Assembly (NCBI GenBank): GCA_028819345.1
Contig: JAPPLW010000082.1
Coordinates: 1-64,000 of the forward strand
From: a bacterium
GTDB taxonomy: Bacteria > Actinomycetota > Acidimicrobiia > Spongiisociales > ZC4RG35
DNA: 64,000 nt
Reading direction: 5' to 3'
The notes under the pieces are model-generated. The model did not search any database. It was not told the origin of the DNA and saw nothing but the letters and a program-made list of their open reading frames with translations. Below are positions 3,000-11,941 of the stretch, in pieces (position 1 is the stretch's first letter; each line of letters opens with the position of its first letter). A program made the position numbers and the translations under genes.

Positions 3000-3863
3000 C
3001 TAGGCGGGAGTCCCGAAGAACTCCGACGCAATCTGTTCGGCCGTCTCGTACTGGTCGGGACGAGGGTGGGTGAGGGTGAACTCGTTCGCCCCCGCCTCTG
3101 CGTACCGCCCCACCACCTCGGTAAAGGCGCCGAGGCTCGACCAGATGTCCGGCAGGCCCTGGGGGGCGGTGGTGAAGGCCTCGAGGTGGACCGAACGGCT
3201 TATCTCGGCGGGACCCCTTCCGATCCTCTCGCACTCGGCGTCCAGGATCCGGTTGCGCTCGGCTATCTCCTCCACCGTCCCGAACGAGTTCCAGCGGTCC
3301 GCAAACCGAGCGCAGATCCCCAGCATCCGGGGACCGTGGGCGGCCACCGTGAACGGCGGACGGGGCCGCTGCACTGGCCGGGGACGGAGCCGGGCCTCCG
3401 ACAACCGGTAATGCCGGCCCTCATGGGAGACCGTGTCCCCCCGCAGCAGGGGGTCGATGACCTCCATTGCCTCGGAGAACCGGTCCACCCGCACCCCCGG
3501 CTCGAAGAGGGGAATCCCGAACCGGCGGTGCTCCTCCTCGAACCACCCACAGCCGATTCCCAGTTCCAGGCGGCCCCCCGAGACGTGATCGACCGTGATG
3601 GCCTGCTGGGCCAGGAGCGCCGGATGGCGGAGGACGTTGCTGCTCACCAGCGCCCCCACCCGGATCCGGGGCGTCTCGGAGGCCATGGCGGCCAGGAGGG
3701 TCCATCCCTCGAAAAGGGGGGCGTTCGGGTCCAGGGAGCGGAGGAGATGGTCGCAGTGCCAGATGCTGTCGAACCCCAACTGCTCGAAGTACCGCCACTT
3801 CTTCACCAGAACCGGATAGGGATCAGACTGGACCACGGTGACGCCGAACTTCAGTCCTTCCAT
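3000..3863 (-). CDS. F420-dependent LLM-class oxidoreductase, array member 1 (operon-distal)
   Basis: This 287-aa TIM-barrel protein belongs to the luciferase-like (bacterial luciferase/F420 oxidoreductase) superfamily. The N-terminal strand MEGLKFGV, the segment GFDSIWHCDHLL, HPALLAQQAITVDHVSGGR, and GIGCGWFEEEHRRFGIP are shared with five upstream neighbours. Such enzymes use F420H2 or FMNH2 to reduce or oxygenate small molecules; the substrate is unknown. ATG at 3863 is chosen because it aligns with the paralogues; in-frame TTG codons lie just upstream. It is the last gene of a six-paralogue minus-strand array, 53 bp downstream of the preceding member on that strand. Confidence 0.85.
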   Translation of the reverse strand: MEGLKFGVTVVQSDPYPVLVKKWRYFEQLGFDSIWHCDHLLRSLDPNAPLFEGWTLLAAMASETPRIRVGALVSSNVLRHPALLAQQAITVDHVSGGRLELGIGCGWFEEEHRRFGIPLFEPGVRVDRFSEAMEVIDPLLRGDTVSHEGRHYRLSEARLRPRPVQRPRPPFTVAAHGPRMLGICARFADRWNSFGTVEEIAERNRILDAECERIGRGPAEISRSVHLEAFTTAPQGLPDIWSSLGAFTEVVGRYAEAGANEFTLTHPRPDQYETAEQIASEFFGTPA

Positions 3864-3925
3864 CAATCCCAAGACTCCGATCCGGTCAACCCGGGCGGCC
3901 GCCCGCCGTATCGGGCGGTCCTACT

Positions 3926-4789
3926 TCAAACACTGTGCCCGATGGCCTCTGTGAGGATGGCGTCGGCCGTGGCCTGCTGGCCGGGGCGGGGCTGGTTGAT
4001 GACGAACTCGCCCATCCCTGCTTCCGTGTACCTGCCCACCACCTCGGAGAAGACGCCGGCACTCGTCCACACGTCCGGCAATCCCCGTGCGGCTGGGTCG
4101 GCGGCATTCATGAAAACCGAGCGGATGATCCCGGCGGGGTCCCTCCCGATCCTCTCGCACTCTTCGTCGAGGATGCGGTTTCGCTCGGCCATATCTTCGG
4201 GCGAGCCAATGGAGTTCCACCGGTCGGCGTAGCGGGCACAGATGCGGAGCATCCGGGGACGGTGGGCGGCCAGGGTGAGCGGCGGGCGGGGCAACTGGAC
4301 CGGATAGGGGCGAAGCTTGGCCTCCGACAACTGGTAGTGCTCGCCTTCGTAGGTGACGGTCTCTCCCCGCAGCAGGCGGTCGATGATCTCGATCGCCTCG
4401 GAGAACCGGTCCACCCGCACCCCGGGCTCCAGCAGAGGTATCCGGAACCGGCGGTGCTCCTCCTCGAACCATCCACATCCCACTCCCATCTCGAGGCGCC
4501 CGCCCGAGATGTGATCGACGGTGATGGCCTGCTGGGCCAGGAGCGCCGGATGGCGGAGGAGGTTGCTGGAGACCAGCGCCCCCATCCGGATCCGGGAGGT
4601 CTCGGAGGCCAGGGCGGCCAGGGTGGTCCAACCCTCGAACATGGGAGCGGTGGGATCGGTGGGACGGAGGAAGTGGTCGGGATTCCATATGCTCTCGATC
4701 CCCAACTCCTCGTAATGGCGCCACTTCCGCACCAACACCGGGTACGGGTCGCCCTGGGCGAGGAATATCCCGAACCGGGGCGCGGTCAT
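3926..4789 (-). CDS. F420-dependent LLM-class oxidoreductase, array member 2
   Basis: This 287-aa paralogue starts MTAPRFGIFLAQGDPYPVL and keeps the whole family pattern, including GIESIWNPDHFLRP and GVGCGWFEEEHRRFRIP. It differs from most members in having NPDHF where they have HCDH, near the cofactor/substrate pocket, which suggests substrate divergence rather than simple gene dosage. It is followed by array member 1 on the same strand, with no obvious terminator between them. The F420 assignment rests on family resemblance and on the actinobacterial setting, not on a diagnostic residue I can verify. Confidence 0.85.
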   Translation of the reverse strand: MTAPRFGIFLAQGDPYPVLVRKWRHYEELGIESIWNPDHFLRPTDPTAPMFEGWTTLAALASETSRIRMGALVSSNLLRHPALLAQQAITVDHISGGRLEMGVGCGWFEEEHRRFRIPLLEPGVRVDRFSEAIEIIDRLLRGETVTYEGEHYQLSEAKLRPYPVQLPRPPLTLAAHRPRMLRICARYADRWNSIGSPEDMAERNRILDEECERIGRDPAGIIRSVFMNAADPAARGLPDVWTSAGVFSEVVGRYTEAGMGEFVINQPRPGQQATADAILTEAIGHSV

Positions 4790-4889
4790 CGGACAGCCTC
4801 CTCCGATGTCGTCACCGGGGTCCTGCGGCGGATGGGGTTCTCACCCGCCACCCGGGCCGCGGCGCTCCTGACGGTCGGAGCGGGGGCCC

Positions 4890-5741
4890 TCAGAGGACCT
4901 CCGAGGCGATCCGTTCGGCAGTCTGGTACTGCCCGGGTTGGGGTTGGTCGATGATGAACTCCTCCACTCCCGCTTCCCGGTACGTGCCCGCCACCTCACC
5001 GAACGCCTCCACGCTCGACCACGGGTTCGGAAATCCCCCCGCAACCAGTTTGGGGACGGACACCCGCATGGAGCGGAGTATTTCTTTCGGATCCCTCCCG
5101 ATCTTCTCACATGCCTCGTCGAGGAGCAGGTTCCGCTCGGCCATCTCCTCGGGCGTGCCGCTGGAGTTCCACCGGTCGGCAAAGCGGGCGCAGATGCGGA
5201 TCATCCGGGGCTGGTGGGCAGCCAGGGTGAGGGGCGGGCGCGGCCACTGGACCGGGTAGGGGCGAAGCTTGGCCTCCGACAACCGGTAGTGCTCGCCATC
5301 GTAGGAGACCGTCTCCCCCCGGAGGAGGGGATCGATGATCTCCAGGGCCTCGGAGAAGCGGTCCACCCTCGGCCCGGGCTCGAAGAGGGGGATCCCGAAG
5401 CGCTCGTGCTCCTCCTCGAACCACCCGCAGCCGACCCCCACCTCCACGCGTCCCTGCGAAACATGGTCGACGGTGATGGCCTCCTGGGCCAGGAGGGCGG
5501 GATGCCGGAGCACATTGCTGCTCACCAGCACCCCCAGGCGGATCCGGGAGGTCTCGGCCGCCAGGGCGGACAGGACGGTCCATCCCTCGTATAGGGGAAC
5601 GGTCGAATCGCCGGTGAACAGCAAATGGTCACAGTGCCAGACGCTCTCGAACCCCAGTTCCTCGAAATACCGCCATTTCTTGACCAGCACCGGGTACGGC
5701 TCGTACTGCATGGCGGAAATCCCGACTCTGAAACCCTTCAT
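4890..5741 (-). CDS. F420-dependent LLM-class oxidoreductase, array member 3
   Basis: This 283-aa paralogue starts MKGFRVGISAMQYEPYPVL and has GFESVWHCDHLL and GVGCGWFEEEHERFGIP. ATG at 5741 is chosen over a much longer open frame because it aligns with the paralogues and has GGAGGTGATGG directly upstream. The upstream stretch is nearly the same as that before member 5 (both read GAGGTGATGG just before the start), showing that the duplication unit carried its ribosome binding site. The gene lies 22 bp downstream of member 4. Confidence 0.85.
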   Translation of the reverse strand: MKGFRVGISAMQYEPYPVLVKKWRYFEELGFESVWHCDHLLFTGDSTVPLYEGWTVLSALAAETSRIRLGVLVSSNVLRHPALLAQEAITVDHVSQGRVEVGVGCGWFEEEHERFGIPLFEPGPRVDRFSEALEIIDPLLRGETVSYDGEHYRLSEAKLRPYPVQWPRPPLTLAAHQPRMIRICARFADRWNSSGTPEEMAERNLLLDEACEKIGRDPKEILRSMRVSVPKLVAGGFPNPWSSVEAFGEVAGTYREAGVEEFIIDQPQPGQYQTAERIASEVL

Positions 5742-5763
5742 CACTCCATCACCTCCACCCTCA

Positions 5764-6639
5764 TTATGCACGGCCTCCACGACTCGGCGCGATGACCTCT
5801 GAGGCGATCCGCTCGACCGTTGGGTACTGGTCGGGTCGGGGCTGGTCCATGATGATCTCGTCCGCTCCGGCCTCTGTGAGCGCGCCCATGACCTCCGAGA
5901 ACGCGCCGGGGCTCGACCAGAGGTCGGGCAGGCCCCGGCAGGTCGGGTTGGACGGTCCCGCCCGGAAGGAACGGATGATCTCTTCCGGGTCCCTTCCGAT
6001 CCTCTCGCACTCGGCGTCGAGGAACCGGCTCCGCTCGCCCATCTCCTCCAGGGTCCCCGACGAGGTCCACCGGTCCGCAAAGCGTGCGGCGATCCTCATC
6101 ATGCGGGGCTGGTGGGCGGCGAGGGTGAAGGGCGGGCGGGGCGACTGCACCGGCCGCGGCCGGAGCCGGGCCTCCGATAACTGATAGTGCTCCCCCTCGT
6201 GGGAGACGGTTTTCCCCCGGAGCAGTGCGTCGAGGATCTCCATCGCCTCGGAGAAGCGGTCCACCCGCTCGGGGGGATCGAAGAGGGGGATCCCGAACCT
6301 TTCGTGCTCTTCCTCGAACCACCCGCAGCCGATCCCGAACTCGAGCCGGCCCCCGGAGACGTGGTCGACGGTGATGGCCTCCTGGGCCAGGAGCGCGGGA
6401 TGCCGGAGCACATTGCTGGTCACCAGCGTCCCCATCCGGATCCGGGAGGTCTCGGCGGCGATGGCGGCCAGGAGGGTCCACCCCTCGAAGAGGGGGTAGG
6501 TGGGATTGTTGGGACGCAGGAGATGGTCGCAGTGCCAGATGCTGTCGAACCCCAACTCGTCGAAGTACCGCCACTTCTTCACCAGCACCGCATAGGGGTC
6601 GGACGGGGTCACGGTGAGCCCGAACGTGACGGCCTTCAC
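5764..6639 (-). CDS. F420-dependent LLM-class oxidoreductase, array member 4
   Basis: This 291-aa paralogue with a GTG start begins MKAVTFGLTVTPSDPYAVL and keeps GFDSIWHCDHLLRP and GIGCGWFEEEHERFGIP. GGGAGTG precedes the GTG. It is most like members 1 and 3 by eye, with HCDHLL shared by all three. No partner flavin reductase or F420 biosynthesis gene lies in the window, so cofactor supply comes from elsewhere. Confidence 0.85.
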   Translation of the reverse strand: MKAVTFGLTVTPSDPYAVLVKKWRYFDELGFDSIWHCDHLLRPNNPTYPLFEGWTLLAAIAAETSRIRMGTLVTSNVLRHPALLAQEAITVDHVSGGRLEFGIGCGWFEEEHERFGIPLFDPPERVDRFSEAMEILDALLRGKTVSHEGEHYQLSEARLRPRPVQSPRPPFTLAAHQPRMMRIAARFADRWTSSGTLEEMGERSRFLDAECERIGRDPEEIIRSFRAGPSNPTCRGLPDLWSSPGAFSEVMGALTEAGADEIIMDQPRPDQYPTVERIASEVIAPSRGGRA

Positions 6640-6688
6640 CGGATCACTCCCATTGTCATCGCGTTCCGGCTCGCCGGGCGGTCCCGCA

Positions 6689-7552
6689 TCAACGGCTCGG
6701 CTCGATGACCTGGGAGGCGATCCGCTCCACCATCTTGTACTGCTCGGGCCGGGGTTCGACGAAGAGGAACTCGTTCACCCCCGCCTCGGCGTACCGGCCC
6801 ACCACCTCGGAGAATGCGTCGGGGCTCGACCACATATCGGGCAGGCCCTGGGGCCCCAGGGTGGAGTTCCCACCCAGGTAGGAACGGACTATCTCCGACG
6901 GCTCCCTCCCGATCCTCCGGCAGGCCTCGTCGACCTGGAGATTGCGTTTGGTGAGTTCCTCCACCGTCCCGGTGGAATTCCAGGAGTCGGCGTAGCGGGC
7001 GCAGATCCCGAGCATGCGAGGCTTGTGACCGGCCAGCATGAACGGAGGGCGGGGCGACTGCACGGGTCGGGGGCGGAGCCGGGCCTCGCTCAGTTGGTAG
7101 TGCCGGCCCTCATAGGAGACGGTCTCCCCGCGCATCAGGGGGTCGATTATCTCCATGGCCTCTTCGAAGCGGTCGACCCGCTCCTTGGGTTCGTACAGGG
7201 GGATGTTGAACCACTCGTGCTCCAACTCGTACCACCCCGCGCCCACCCCGAAGTCCAACCGCCCCTCGGAGACGTGATCCAGGGTGATGGCCTGCTGGGC
7301 CAGGAGCGCGGGGTGGCGGAACGTGTTGCTGCTCACCAGCACCCCCACCCTGATCCGGGAGGTCTCCGCCGCCAGGGCGGCCAGCACGGTCCAACCCTCG
7401 AAGAAGGGCTTATCGGGATGGCCGGGATTGTGAAAGTGGTCACACGGCCAGATGCTGTCGAACCCCAGTTCCTCGAAGTACCGCCAGTTGTCCAACAGCA
7501 CCTGATACGGCTTCCACTGGGGGGTGTAGACACCGAACCTGAATCCCTTCAC
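6689..7552 (-). CDS. F420-dependent LLM-class oxidoreductase, array member 5
   Basis: This 287-aa paralogue begins at GTG 7552 (VKGFRFGVYTPQWKPYQVL), with GAGGTGATGG upstream as in member 3. It is one of the more divergent copies: GFDSIWPCDHFHNPGHPD replaces the usual HCDH segment, and GVGAGWYELEHEWFNIP replaces GCGWFEEEH. A longer in-frame extension to 7648 exists but has no family similarity. The changes cluster at the predicted active-site face, so this copy probably acts on a different substrate. Confidence 0.85.
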   Translation of the reverse strand: MKGFRFGVYTPQWKPYQVLLDNWRYFEELGFDSIWPCDHFHNPGHPDKPFFEGWTVLAALAAETSRIRVGVLVSSNTFRHPALLAQQAITLDHVSEGRLDFGVGAGWYELEHEWFNIPLYEPKERVDRFEEAMEIIDPLMRGETVSYEGRHYQLSEARLRPRPVQSPRPPFMLAGHKPRMLGICARYADSWNSTGTVEELTKRNLQVDEACRRIGREPSEIVRSYLGGNSTLGPQGLPDMWSSPDAFSEVVGRYAEAGVNEFLFVEPRPEQYKMVERIASQVIEPSR

Positions 7553-7661
7553 AACGCCATCACCTCGACTCTCATCAGCAACCGGCTGGTCCGGGGCCAA
7601 ACATAACACGGGCAGGCGCTCCCGACACCCCCGACGGGGGTCCGCCATTGGCGCCGGTGGG

Positions 7662-8531
7662 TCAGCGACCCGGCTCGATCACCTCCGAGACGATCCGCTC
7701 GGCCGTCTTGAACTGCTCGGGGCGGGGCTGGTCCATGATGAACTCGTTCACCCCCGACTCGGCGTAGCGCCCCACCACTTCACTGAACGCGTCGGGGCTC
7801 GACCAGGCGTCGGGCAGGCCCTGGGCGGCCATGTTGGACGCCCACCCGTAGAAGGAGCGGATTATCTCGGCCGGGTCCCTCCCGATCCGCTCGCAGGCCT
7901 CGTCGAGGAGGCGGTTGCGCTCTGCCATCTCCTCCACCGTCCCGAAGGAGTTCCACCGGTCGGCATAGCGGGCGCAGATGGCCAGCATGCGGGGGCGGTG
8001 GGCGCCCAGGGTGAGCGGCGGGCGGGGAGACTGGACCGGGCGCGGGCGGAGCCGGGCGCCCCGGAGCCGGTAATGCTCACCGTCGAAGGTGACTTCCTGT
8101 CCGCGGAGGAGGGAGTCGATGATCTCCACCGCCTCCGAGAAGCTCCGCACCAGCGTCGGCGGGTCGCCGAAGGGGATCCCGAACCGGTCGTGCTCCTCCA
8201 CGAACCATCCGGCGCCGAACCCGAGTTCCAGCCGGCCTTCCGAGATGTGGTCGATGGTGAGGGCCTCGTGCGCCAGCAGGGCCGGGTGGCGGAAGGTGTT
8301 GCTGCCCACCAGCACCCCCACCCTGATCCGGGAGGTCTCGGCGGCCAAGGCGGCCAGGAGGGTCCACCCCTCGAAGTAGGGATCAGAGGTGTTGGAGGGC
8401 CGGAGGAAGTGGTCGCAGTCCCAGATGCTGTCGAAGCCCAGTTCCTCGAAGTATCGCCACCGCTCCGCCAGGACCGGATACGGCTCGGCCTGATCGGTGC
8501 AGATCCCGTAGAGGATCCTCCCCTCCGCCAT
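7662..8531 (-). CDS. F420-dependent LLM-class oxidoreductase, array member 6 (operon-proximal)
   Basis: This 289-aa paralogue begins MAEGRILYGICTDQAEPYPVL at ATG 8531. It has GFDSIWDCDHFLRP and GFGAGWFVEEHDRFGIP, so like member 5 it has Ala instead of Cys in the GxGxGW motif. It is the first oxidoreductase transcribed. The DUF378 gene lies 50 bp upstream on the same strand and may share its promoter. The array order, with members 5 and 6 (GAGW) at the promoter end and 1-4 (GCGW) behind, suggests stepwise tandem duplication. Confidence 0.85.
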   Translation of the reverse strand: MAEGRILYGICTDQAEPYPVLAERWRYFEELGFDSIWDCDHFLRPSNTSDPYFEGWTLLAALAAETSRIRVGVLVGSNTFRHPALLAHEALTIDHISEGRLELGFGAGWFVEEHDRFGIPFGDPPTLVRSFSEAVEIIDSLLRGQEVTFDGEHYRLRGARLRPRPVQSPRPPLTLGAHRPRMLAICARYADRWNSFGTVEEMAERNRLLDEACERIGRDPAEIIRSFYGWASNMAAQGLPDAWSSPDAFSEVVGRYAESGVNEFIMDQPRPEQFKTAERIVSEVIEPGR

Positions 8532-8907: not shown

Positions 8908-10761
8908 ATGCCAGACCAGCCCGCCGTCGCCGACCGCACGCCCCGGACCCCGATCCTGTTCGGCGTCTCCGGTCCCCCGCCGCCCGACGGAGGCGACGAC
9001 GGTGCCTTCCTGGACGACCTGGCTGCCCGGGGCATCCGGTCCTATGAACTCTCCTTCGTGAAGGGGTTCCCCTGGAAGGAGCCCCGGTGCGCGCAGTTCG
9101 GCGCCGAGGCCGCGGCGAGGGGCCTTCGGATCTCGGTCCACGCCCCCTACTTCGCGGTGCTTACCACCGAGGAACCCGACAAGTCCCGGATGTGCCTCTC
9201 GGCCCTGGAGCACACCATGAAACTGGGACAGGAACTGGAGGCGCCCCTGGTGGTCGCCCACTCCGGTCACCTGAAGGGACGGGATCCCGGGCAGGTGATG
9301 AACCTGATCCGGAGCCGCCTGGACGACTTGGCTCCCAAGGTGGCCGACCTGGGGGTGGGCCTCGGATTGGAGACCGCCGGACGCGAGGGTGCCTTCGGGA
9401 CGCTGGGGGACATCGCCCTCCTGGCCGCGGAGTTCCCCTTCGTCAGGCCGGTGGTCGACTGGGCGCATCTCCACGCTCTATCGGGAGGAGGGCTGGTGGA
9501 CACCGAGCGGTTCAAGACGGTCCTGTCCTTTTTGCGAGATTCCTTCCCCGCCTGGATGCTGTCGCCGCTCCACACCCAGTTCACCGACAACCGGTTCGGA
9601 CCCGCCGGGGAGATCAGCCATGTCCGGTACGGAGAGGGGACGCTTCGCGTGGGACCGCTGGTGGAGGCGGCGTACGAGTCGGGCGTCTCCATGGTGGTGA
9701 TCTCCGAGGCCCGGGAGTGGGAGAGCCACGTCGCCATCGGCCGGGAGGTGGCGACCACGGTCCGCCGCCTGGAGCAGGTCCGGGAGAGGGGCGGCCCCAG
9801 CGCCGCCTCGGGGGCGGTGTCCTTTCCCGACCCGGTGCCGGTGGCCCCCACCGAGGACCGGCACCGGCCCCTGAAGGCCTCCCTCCCCCTTCGCCTCTCC
9901 AACCTGGCCAAGCCCTTCTTCCCCGAGGGCTACACCAAGGGCGACCTGATCAGCTACTACGCCTCGGTGGCGGGGACCCTTCTCCCCCACCTCCGGGACC
10001 GGCCCCTGTCGATGTCCCGATATCCCGACGGGATCGAGGGGCCGTCCTTCTATGAGAAGCGGGCTCCGGGGCACCAGCCCCAGTGGATGAGAAAGCTCCC
10101 GGTGGACTCCCACTCCATGGGCGGGGAGATCGAGTTTCTCTGCGCGGACCATCCCGAGTCGTTGATGTGGTTCGCCAACATGGGCTGTGTGGAGACCCAC
10201 CCCTTCCACTCCCGCCATCCCGACCTCGACCATCCCGACTGGGCGGTGTTCGACTTCGACCCGGCCCCCGGCGCGTCGTGGTCGCAGGTGGTGGCGGGCG
10301 CCCGGCTGTGCGGGATGGCGCTGGAGCGGCTCGGGCTGCGCTCCTACCCCAAGCTGTCGGGAAGCCGCGGCATGCACGTGTACGTGCCGCTCCGGCCGGT
10401 GCACGGCTACGGGAGGGTGCGGAGGTTCGTGGGGGCGGTGGCCCGGTTGCTGGAAGCGGCCAACCCCGAGGACCTGACCCTGGCCTGGGAGAAGCCCAGG
10501 AGAGCCGGGAAGGTGTTCATCGACCACAACCGCAATGCCTTCGGCCAGACCATCTCGTCGGTCTATTCGGTCCGTCCCCTCCCCGGGGCGCCGGTGTCGG
10601 CGCCCCTCTTGTGGGAGGAGGTGGGCCGCTACCGGAACGGCGACATCCATATCGGGAACCTGTGGGACCGCCTGTCCCGCTACGGCGACCTGTTCCTGGG
10701 AGTGCTGGCCGCCGACCAGACCCTCGACTCCGCCGAGGAGGCCCTGGAAATAACTACTTGA
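8908..10761 (+). CDS. Endonuclease IV-like / LigD-type polymerase (PrimPol) fusion protein
   Basis: This 617-aa protein joins two DNA repair domains. Residues 15-285 form an endonuclease IV-like TIM barrel. Lined up by spacing with E. coli Nfo, eight of nine zinc ligands are present (H78, H118, E155, D184, H187, H222, H238, E267); the position of Nfo D229 is Ile236. Residues about 317-617 are a LigD-type PrimPol domain with LSNLAKPFFPEGYTKGDLI, the DFD metal pair (D449, D451), SGSRGMHVYVPL and the third Asp (D539) in FIDHNRNAFGQT, 90 residues on as in LigD. No ligase, 3'-phosphoesterase or Ku is in the window. A plausible job is to cut at abasic or blocked 3' ends and fill the gap. ATG at 8908 is used because the longer frame would overlap the DUF378 gene. 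Confidence 0.85.
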   Translation: MPDQPAVADRTPRTPILFGVSGPPPPDGGDDGAFLDDLAARGIRSYELSFVKGFPWKEPRCAQFGAEAAARGLRISVHAPYFAVLTTEEPDKSRMCLSALEHTMKLGQELEAPLVVAHSGHLKGRDPGQVMNLIRSRLDDLAPKVADLGVGLGLETAGREGAFGTLGDIALLAAEFPFVRPVVDWAHLHALSGGGLVDTERFKTVLSFLRDSFPAWMLSPLHTQFTDNRFGPAGEISHVRYGEGTLRVGPLVEAAYESGVSMVVISEAREWESHVAIGREVATTVRRLEQVRERGGPSAASGAVSFPDPVPVAPTEDRHRPLKASLPLRLSNLAKPFFPEGYTKGDLISYYASVAGTLLPHLRDRPLSMSRYPDGIEGPSFYEKRAPGHQPQWMRKLPVDSHSMGGEIEFLCADHPESLMWFANMGCVETHPFHSRHPDLDHPDWAVFDFDPAPGASWSQVVAGARLCGMALERLGLRSYPKLSGSRGMHVYVPLRPVHGYGRVRRFVGAVARLLEAANPEDLTLAWEKPRRAGKVFIDHNRNAFGQTISSVYSVRPLPGAPVSAPLLWEEVGRYRNGDIHIGNLWDRLSRYGDLFLGVLAADQTLDSAEEALEITT

Positions 10762-10810: not shown

Positions 10811-11941
10811 ATGGACGTCTACGGACGCATCAACATTCTGGGGGGCAGGTCGGTCCGCCTCCCCGCCCTCGACGTGACCGAGGCCATCATCCTGGACAAC
10901 GACCCTCTGAGCCGCGCCAAGATGTGGGCCAGCCAGGGCGCCGACCTCCTGCATGTGGTGGATTTGAACGCCGCCGCGCTGGGCGACTACCAGAACCGCG
11001 ACCTGATCGACAGGATCGTTCGGGAACTGGACACGCCGGTCCAGGTGGCGGGAGGCGTCCGGTCCCCCATCGAGGCGGCGCGGCTGATCCGCAACGGCGC
11101 CTGGAGGGTGGTGATGGGCACCGCCGCCATCGAGGAGCAGATCATGATCTGGGACCTGTGCCGGGAGTATCCGGGCAAGATCGCCGTCTCGCTCGACGTC
11201 CGTCCCGACCAGGAGATAGTGACCCAGGGATTCTCGGAGAGAAGCGGCCGCTACCTCGAGGAAGTGCTGTTGGAGATGTCCTCGGCGGGAGTGGCCGCCT
11301 TCCTGGTGGCAGAGGCCGGACGCGACCCCCTCACCGAGCCGCTCGACCTGGATATCTACACCGAGTGCCTGGAATTGGTGCCCGAGCCGGTGATAGTGGC
11401 CGGCGGGGTGGGCTCGGTGGACGACCTCCGCACCCTTTCCCGGCTGTCGGTTTCGGGCCGCAAGCTCGGGGGGGTGATCGTGGGAAGGGAGGTCACCCAC
11501 GGCCGGTTCAGCCTCCAGCAGGCCAAGCAGACCGTGGCGGCCGCCGACGAGGCGCCGGCACTGAGTCCCCGCGGAGGGATGAGCATGGTCCTCCGGGTGG
11601 AGGACCTCGAGAAGATGTCCGCTTTCTACTCCAAGGTCCTCGGTCTCAGCGAGGTGGTCGCCCCGGCGGTGGCCACCCGCGGCTATGTGTGGATGGGGAT
11701 CGGCGGGGGGGCCTACCTCATCCTCCGAAGGAGACGCGAGGGCGAGCCGCACTCGACGGGAACCGCTGAGATCGTGCTGTGGACCGAGGACACCAAGAAG
11801 TGGGCGGACTACCTGGTCGGCCAGGGTCTGGGGGTGATGAAGACCCACTCCGCCGAGGCCGGACTGCCGGTCGACCTGACCGGGGTGGTCGATCCCGAGG
11901 GGAACACCGTCTGGGTGAGCAGGCGCCCCCAGACGACCTAG
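10811..11941 (+). CDS. HisA-like isomerase fused to a C-terminal VOC (glyoxalase-fold) domain
   Basis: This 376-aa protein has a HisA/HisF-type (beta/alpha)8 barrel at residues 1-245 and a VOC/glyoxalase domain at about 257-372 (MSMVLRVEDLEKMSAFYSKV, VVDPEGNTVWV). HisA isomerises ProFAR in histidine synthesis. Here the second-half Asp (D129 in VSLDV) is present, but the N-terminal catalytic Asp expected at position 8 is Asn (GRINILGG), and phosphate-loop glycines AGGV occur twice (80-83, 197-200). It may therefore be a HisA paralogue with another sugar-phosphate substrate rather than the histidine enzyme. No other his gene is nearby. It is followed by the riboswitch-controlled metX. Confidence 0.75.
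   Translation: MDVYGRINILGGRSVRLPALDVTEAIILDNDPLSRAKMWASQGADLLHVVDLNAAALGDYQNRDLIDRIVRELDTPVQVAGGVRSPIEAARLIRNGAWRVVMGTAAIEEQIMIWDLCREYPGKIAVSLDVRPDQEIVTQGFSERSGRYLEEVLLEMSSAGVAAFLVAEAGRDPLTEPLDLDIYTECLELVPEPVIVAGGVGSVDDLRTLSRLSVSGRKLGGVIVGREVTHGRFSLQQAKQTVAAADEAPALSPRGGMSMVLRVEDLEKMSAFYSKVLGLSEVVAPAVATRGYVWMGIGGGAYLILRRRREGEPHSTGTAEIVLWTEDTKKWADYLVGQGLGVMKTHSAEAGLPVDLTGVVDPEGNTVWVSRRPQTT

Follow-up and report, generated by a model that had tools for sequence, protein, structure and literature searches.

An endonuclease IV-like domain fused to a LigD-type polymerase domain in Acidimicrobiia, with a counterpart in the reversed order

The 64,000-nucleotide stretch of an Acidimicrobiia genome analysed here (the window) encodes a protein in which an endonuclease IV (EndoIV)-like TIM-barrel domain is followed by a LigD-type primase-polymerase domain. 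The same pair occurs in the opposite order in a separate family, f48, and fusion in both orders suggests that the two activities cooperate in the repair of broken or base-less DNA. Both domains are known; measured against the open-access literature searched, what is new is the architecture, its reversed counterpart and the existence of carriers that lack Ku. No published description of any of these three was found in open-access PMC. The features of the forward fusion are as follows, in window coordinates.

8908..10761 (+), fusion protein coding sequence, 617 amino acids, ATG start; the start methionine is kept in the same-genus homologue L016, and L012 and L013 match from residue 1
8947..9783 (+), EndoIV-like TIM-barrel domain, residues 14-292 (PF01261, AlphaFold2 model, structural matches)
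9139..9708 (+), putative tri-metal site, H78, H118, E155, D184, H187, H222, H238 and E267 (alignment)
9610-9612 (+), codon of the invariant Glu235, adjoining Ile236 (alignment)
9613-9615 (+), codon of Ile236, at the position of D229 in endonuclease IV (Nfo) (alignment)
9784..9885 (+), inter-domain linker, residues 293-326, fast evolving (dN/dS)
9886..10758 (+), LigD-type primase-polymerase domain, residues 327-617 (PF21686, structural matches)
9901..9939 (+), 5′-phosphate pocket, N332, K335 and K344, equivalent to N13, K16 and K26 of Mtb LigD (alignment)
10252..10524 (+), polymerase catalytic residues Asp449, Asp451 and Asp539 (alignment with Mtb LigD PolDom)

Two intact domains on one chain

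A Pfam search bears out the domain identities and order read from the sequence in the initial annotation. AP_endonuc_2 (PF01261) matches residues 36-272 with 82.7 bits (cut-off 31.1), and LigD_Prim-Pol (PF21686) matches residues 343-596 with 282.9 bits (cut-off 27.4), covering profile positions 1-254 of 254. The C-terminal half also exceeds the cut-off of the NCBIfam model TIGR02778 (ligD_pol; 233.4 bits against 214.7). The polypeptide does lack the other LigD domains, as had been proposed: Pfam and NCBIfam find no ATP-dependent ligase domain in the 617 residues, and Pfam finds no LigD_N phosphoesterase domain. A whole-chain AlphaFold2 model built with 35 homologues has a mean pLDDT of 91.5 and a pTM of 0.90; a pTM of this size in a chain with two domains means that their predicted placement relative to each other may be informative.

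The gene is a single uninterrupted open reading frame of 617 codons, and an assembly join or frameshift between the domains is ruled out by same-order homologues in many independent assemblies and by the lack of any internal stop. Both halves are under purifying selection, with a dN/dS of 0.065-0.17 in each domain against four congeners. The linker reaches 0.30-0.65 in three of these four comparisons and shows zero differences in the closest congener.

The N-terminal half is a divergent relative of EndoIV

We aligned the N-terminal half with Nfo, whose metal ligands we take to be the known sites H69, H109, E145, D179, H182, H216, D229, H231 and E261. Residues H78, H118, E155, D184, H187, H222, H238 and E267 of the fusion correspond to H69, H109, E145, D179, H182, H216, H231 and E261, and Ile236 stands at D229. 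The eight of nine ligands initially counted are therefore present in the window protein, but not all eight are fixed in the family. Across 32 diverse members, H78, H118, E155, D184, H187, H238 and E267 are invariant, whereas position 222 (Nfo H216) has His in 25 members and Gln in the other 7; the D229 position is Ile, Val or Leu in 32 of 32 homologues. Glu235 and His189 are also invariant in the family, as is Y81, the equivalent of Nfo Tyr72, while the Nfo residue N75 is not conserved. Seven of the nine Nfo ligands, together with Glu235, remain invariant across both fusion orders and in a stand-alone Firmicutes-like homologue, L142. L142 keeps Glu235 and His238, and so do the stand-alone f56 homologues, in the sequence NETKH. 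We infer that Glu235 may take the place of D229 at the third metal, as ExxH instead of DxH.

A profile of 33 members of the N-domain family, the stand-alone L142 included, was searched against solved structures. The best PDB match is MJ1311 (3wqo; E 1.7e-12), an EndoIV/tagatose-epimerase-like protein deposited as uncharacterized, which differs from the fusion in standing alone and in carrying DDEH in the aligned segment, with an Asp two residues before the His, as in Nfo. The E values are 6.8e-11 to 3e-5 for EndoIV proteins of many organisms and about 1e-6 for UV endonuclease, whereas those for xylose isomerases are 0.004 or worse. The fold agrees with the profile. A separate AlphaFold2 model of the N-domain (pLDDT 95.4, pTM 0.92) was compared with PDB chains, and the top nine matches are all EndoIV, from T. 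maritima, E. coli and T. thermophilus (Z 25.1-26.2). EndoIV structures span Z 24.4-26.2 overall, the best being 4hno (Z 26.2, rmsd 2.8, 267 residues aligned), followed by MJ1311 at Z 25.0 and by sugar isomerases and epimerases at 23.8 or less; adjacent matches less than 1 Z apart are treated as tied, and the order of the groups is clear. A xylose-isomerase-like sugar epimerase, the competing assignment raised in the initial annotation, is thus second best by both profile and fold.

The N-terminal half is nearer to EndoIV than to sugar isomerases, yet it is not Nfo. It shares with Nfo the TIM-barrel fold, the eight ligands and the Tyr72 equivalent, but it is only 13-20% identical, lacks D229 and N75, has a polymerase attached and falls below the curated NCBIfam cut-offs for TIGR00587 (deoxyribonuclease IV; 17.8 bits against 129.65) and NF002198 (18.4 bits against 244). 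Because D229 is missing and the Nfo cut-off is failed, the name endonuclease IV is unsuitable. The genome that encodes the fusion has canonical Nfo as a separate gene.

The C-terminal half retains the LigD polymerase site

Solved structures of LigD polymerase domains and Prim-PolC share 31-37% sequence identity with the C-terminal half, whose structural matches include 5dmu (Z 38.1), 6sa0 (Z 37.6) and 2irx (Z 35.8). Alignment to Mtb LigD PolDom confirms the catalytic triad and its spacing, with D449-x-D451 followed by D539 and 90 residues from the first Asp to the last. All three are invariant in 35 homologues, as are N332, K335 and K344, which align with the residues of the Mtb LigD 5′-phosphate pocket (PMC8656161), R371 and P373, which correspond to R63 and P65 of Prim-PolC (PMC7442782), and a hydrophobic wedge formed by F381 and Y382. 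Because the triad, pocket, R371/P373 and wedge are invariant, the domain should bind gaps with a 5′-phosphate and polymerise.

The fusion thus contains a full domain of the kind found in mycobacterial LigD and Prim-PolC, with the triad, pocket and wedge of both. In contrast, LigD carries ligase and phosphoesterase domains, and Prim-PolC is a separate chain, co-transcribed with ligC in some mycobacteria. The linkage of Prim-PolC with ligC and fpg, also seen in some mycobacteria, is absent at the fusion locus in the window. The phosphoesterase-polymerase-ligase LigD shares with the fusion the logic of 3′-end healing and fill-in, but the fusion has an unrelated nuclease fold, no ligase domain and another domain order. 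We know of no LigD polymerase domain or Prim-PolC described with an EndoIV-like domain.

Distribution and a reversed fusion

The forward fusion is present in 48 of 59 order-level relatives, in some of them split over contigs, and many named metagenome assemblies of Acidimicrobiia contain same-order homologues. The alignment of full-length homologues comprises about 45 distinct sequences and spans one order of Acidimicrobiia. Outside the order, forward fusions 41-47% identical occur in the Actinomycetota families f52 and f55. Among 396 Actinomycetota genomes, 19 contain the N-domain family: as forward fusions in 13, in family f48 in three and as stand-alone proteins in three (family f56).

In two f48 genomes (G129 and G279), the same Pfam pair forms a 600-residue protein in which the polymerase domain precedes the EndoIV-like one.

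L130:6192-7994 (-), reversed fusion, polymerase then EndoIV-like (Pfam pair)
L131:2691-4493 (-), reversed fusion, polymerase then EndoIV-like (Pfam pair)

A third copy, in G322 (L132:6392-8193), has a frame break that divides it between two overlapping frames. When 63 polymerase domains are placed in a tree, the reversed form groups with stand-alone domains. The groups to be tested were defined from domain architecture ahead of the tree; all fusions taken as one clade are rejected (AU p=0.00997), whereas the forward fusions alone as one clade are not (AU p=0.386). Since the reversed polymerase domain stands apart from the forward fusions (AU p=0.01), the EndoIV-like and polymerase domains were, under this sampling, probably joined at least twice. 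The existence of two natural fusions, one in each order, provides independent evidence from evolution that both domains act as one unit.

Ku, ligases and Nfo in carrier genomes

The initial annotation had pointed to Ku and LigD elsewhere in the genome as a check. The genome encodes one Ku, one LigC-type ligase, a stand-alone polymerase domain besides that of the fusion, and a canonical Nfo (372.9 bits); no LigD_N phosphoesterase was found in it at E<=0.001. Among near-complete genomes of the order, Ku is present in 34 of 36 carriers against 2 of 7 non-carriers, as raw counts that ignore shared ancestry. Both carriers without Ku belong to one genus, g21 (G036, 100% complete, and G043, 95% complete), in which the fusion is intact and neither Ku nor a PF01068 (ATP-dependent) ligase match was detected. 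The fusion can therefore persist without Ku-dependent joining.

Of 43 near-complete relatives, 42 give a match to canonical Nfo, a few of them only through a fragment or through the fusion. With Nfo nearly everywhere, carriers included, the fusion is no substitute for it, and these genomes do not require the N-domain for general AP endonuclease function. Within the window, the fusion has no repair or ligase gene beside it, the LigC-type ligase being located elsewhere in the genome, and the loci of relatives show no conserved repair gene beside it and no link to ku in any locus checked.

Proposed function and alternatives

We favour, with some confidence, a role akin to base excision repair of the Prim-PolC type, in which an EndoIV-like nuclease that cleans 3′ ends or acts on AP sites works together with a polymerase that fills short gaps. 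The two steps first envisaged, incising DNA or cleaning its 3′ ends and then filling in, are plausible for these domains. The N-terminal domain would strip 3′-blocking groups (3′-phosphate, 3′-sugar remnants) or nick 5′ of abasic sites, leaving a 3′-OH. The C-terminal domain would then grip the downstream 5′-phosphate and add one or a few nucleotides, probably ribonucleotides. Sealing would fall to a separate ligase, which may be the LigC-type ATP-dependent enzyme in the genome that encodes the fusion and, by default, NAD-dependent LigA in carriers without an ATP-dependent ligase. The fusion would then hold the EndoIV and Prim-PolC steps of short-patch base excision repair on a single chain and, where Ku is present, might also serve Ku-dependent end joining. 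Among partner nucleases of Prim-PolC and LigC, EndoIV performed best when base excision repair was rebuilt in vitro, with ribonucleotide gap filling (PMC5663958), and LigD and Nfo of B. subtilis are epistatic in spore resistance (PMC4770248). Against this reading stand the loss of D229, the lack of a conserved N75 and the Gln at the H216 position in some members, as well as the canonical Nfo encoded by nearly all carriers and the absence of repair genes next to the fusion.

A more specific form of the proposal can be put forward tentatively. The fusion could be a single-chain repair enzyme that combines abasic nicking or 3′ healing with (ribo)nucleotide fill-in, serving a short-patch base excision repair independent of Ku and, in one genus, of ATP-dependent ligase, with Glu replacing the Nfo Asp in the tri-metal centre. 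Support for LigD-type polymerases in base excision repair besides end joining has so far come from mycobacterial LigC/Prim-PolC and the B. subtilis spore data, and a genus that keeps the fusion without Ku is a place to test such a role.

The co-occurrence with Ku is as much an indication of end joining as of excision repair. In a Ku-dependent end-joining factor, the EndoIV-like domain would heal 3′ ends in place of the LigD phosphoesterase and the polymerase would fill in, with Ku and an ATP-dependent ligase acting in trans. Most carriers have Ku, and the genome studied here has Ku and a LigC-type ligase but no LigD_N phosphoesterase. In f48, no polymerase domain other than that of the reversed fusion gives a strong match, and some 2 kb separate Ku from an ATP-dependent ligase. 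However, genus g21 keeps its fusion with no Ku or ATP-dependent ligase detected, the stand-alone polymerase domain in the studied genome could serve NHEJ instead, and the fusion is unlinked to ku throughout the loci checked. We regard this role as the main rival, clearly less likely than excision repair.

The substitutions in the metal centre could also mean that catalysis by the EndoIV-like half is changed or lost, and that this half serves the polymerase as a DNA-binding or scaffolding module. D229 and N75 are lost, H216 is variable and canonical Nfo is kept in the same genomes, but a scaffold would have no need of the seven ligands and Glu235 that persist in both fusion orders and in L142, and this makes such a role improbable. 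It is scarcely credible that the fusion is metabolic or accidental, with a TIM barrel of the sugar-phosphate isomerase/epimerase type as its N-terminal half: PF01261 does include such enzymes and epimerase structures reach Z 21-23.8, but EndoIV leads by profile and fold, H78 and H118 of the EndoIV metal centre are invariant, and fusions to a DNA polymerase exist in two opposite orders.

Flanking genes and outlying homologues

A repair operon was considered and rejected: luciferase-like genes lie upstream, and HisA and an alpha/beta hydrolase lie downstream. The upstream genes (3000-8531, -) are six similar tandem luciferase-like monooxygenase genes, probably F420-dependent, of which only that at 7662-8531 is confirmed by Pfam. 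In the product of the next gene downstream (10811-11941, +), a HisA-type domain of histidine biosynthesis (residues 6-228) is followed by a domain with the glyoxalase fold (260-368). The EndoIV-polymerase fusion has a HisA-like gene after it in 17 relatives, and of its neighbours it is mainly HisA that persists in more distant ones.

A third architecture was sought in homologues of LigD size that are extended far beyond the usual N-terminus (L086, L088 and L092), but the extensions proved to be spurious read-through, a run of N or ordinary LigD. A phage or plasmid origin was likewise set aside, with no phage match, no relative on a viral contig and two weak plasmid records. Among the stand-alone f56 homologues, L207 and L208 carry Leu where the HAPY motif has tyrosine, and such homologues lie near cytochrome c maturation-like genes (L210 and L211). 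The record that holds L142 (NZ_CP061967.1) is named Klebsiella pneumoniae plasmid unnamed2. Judged by its sequence, with genes for proteins that resemble spermidine synthase, agmatinase, sulfate adenylyltransferase and AprB, it has the look of a contig from a Firmicutes sulfate reducer, and its label is probably wrong.
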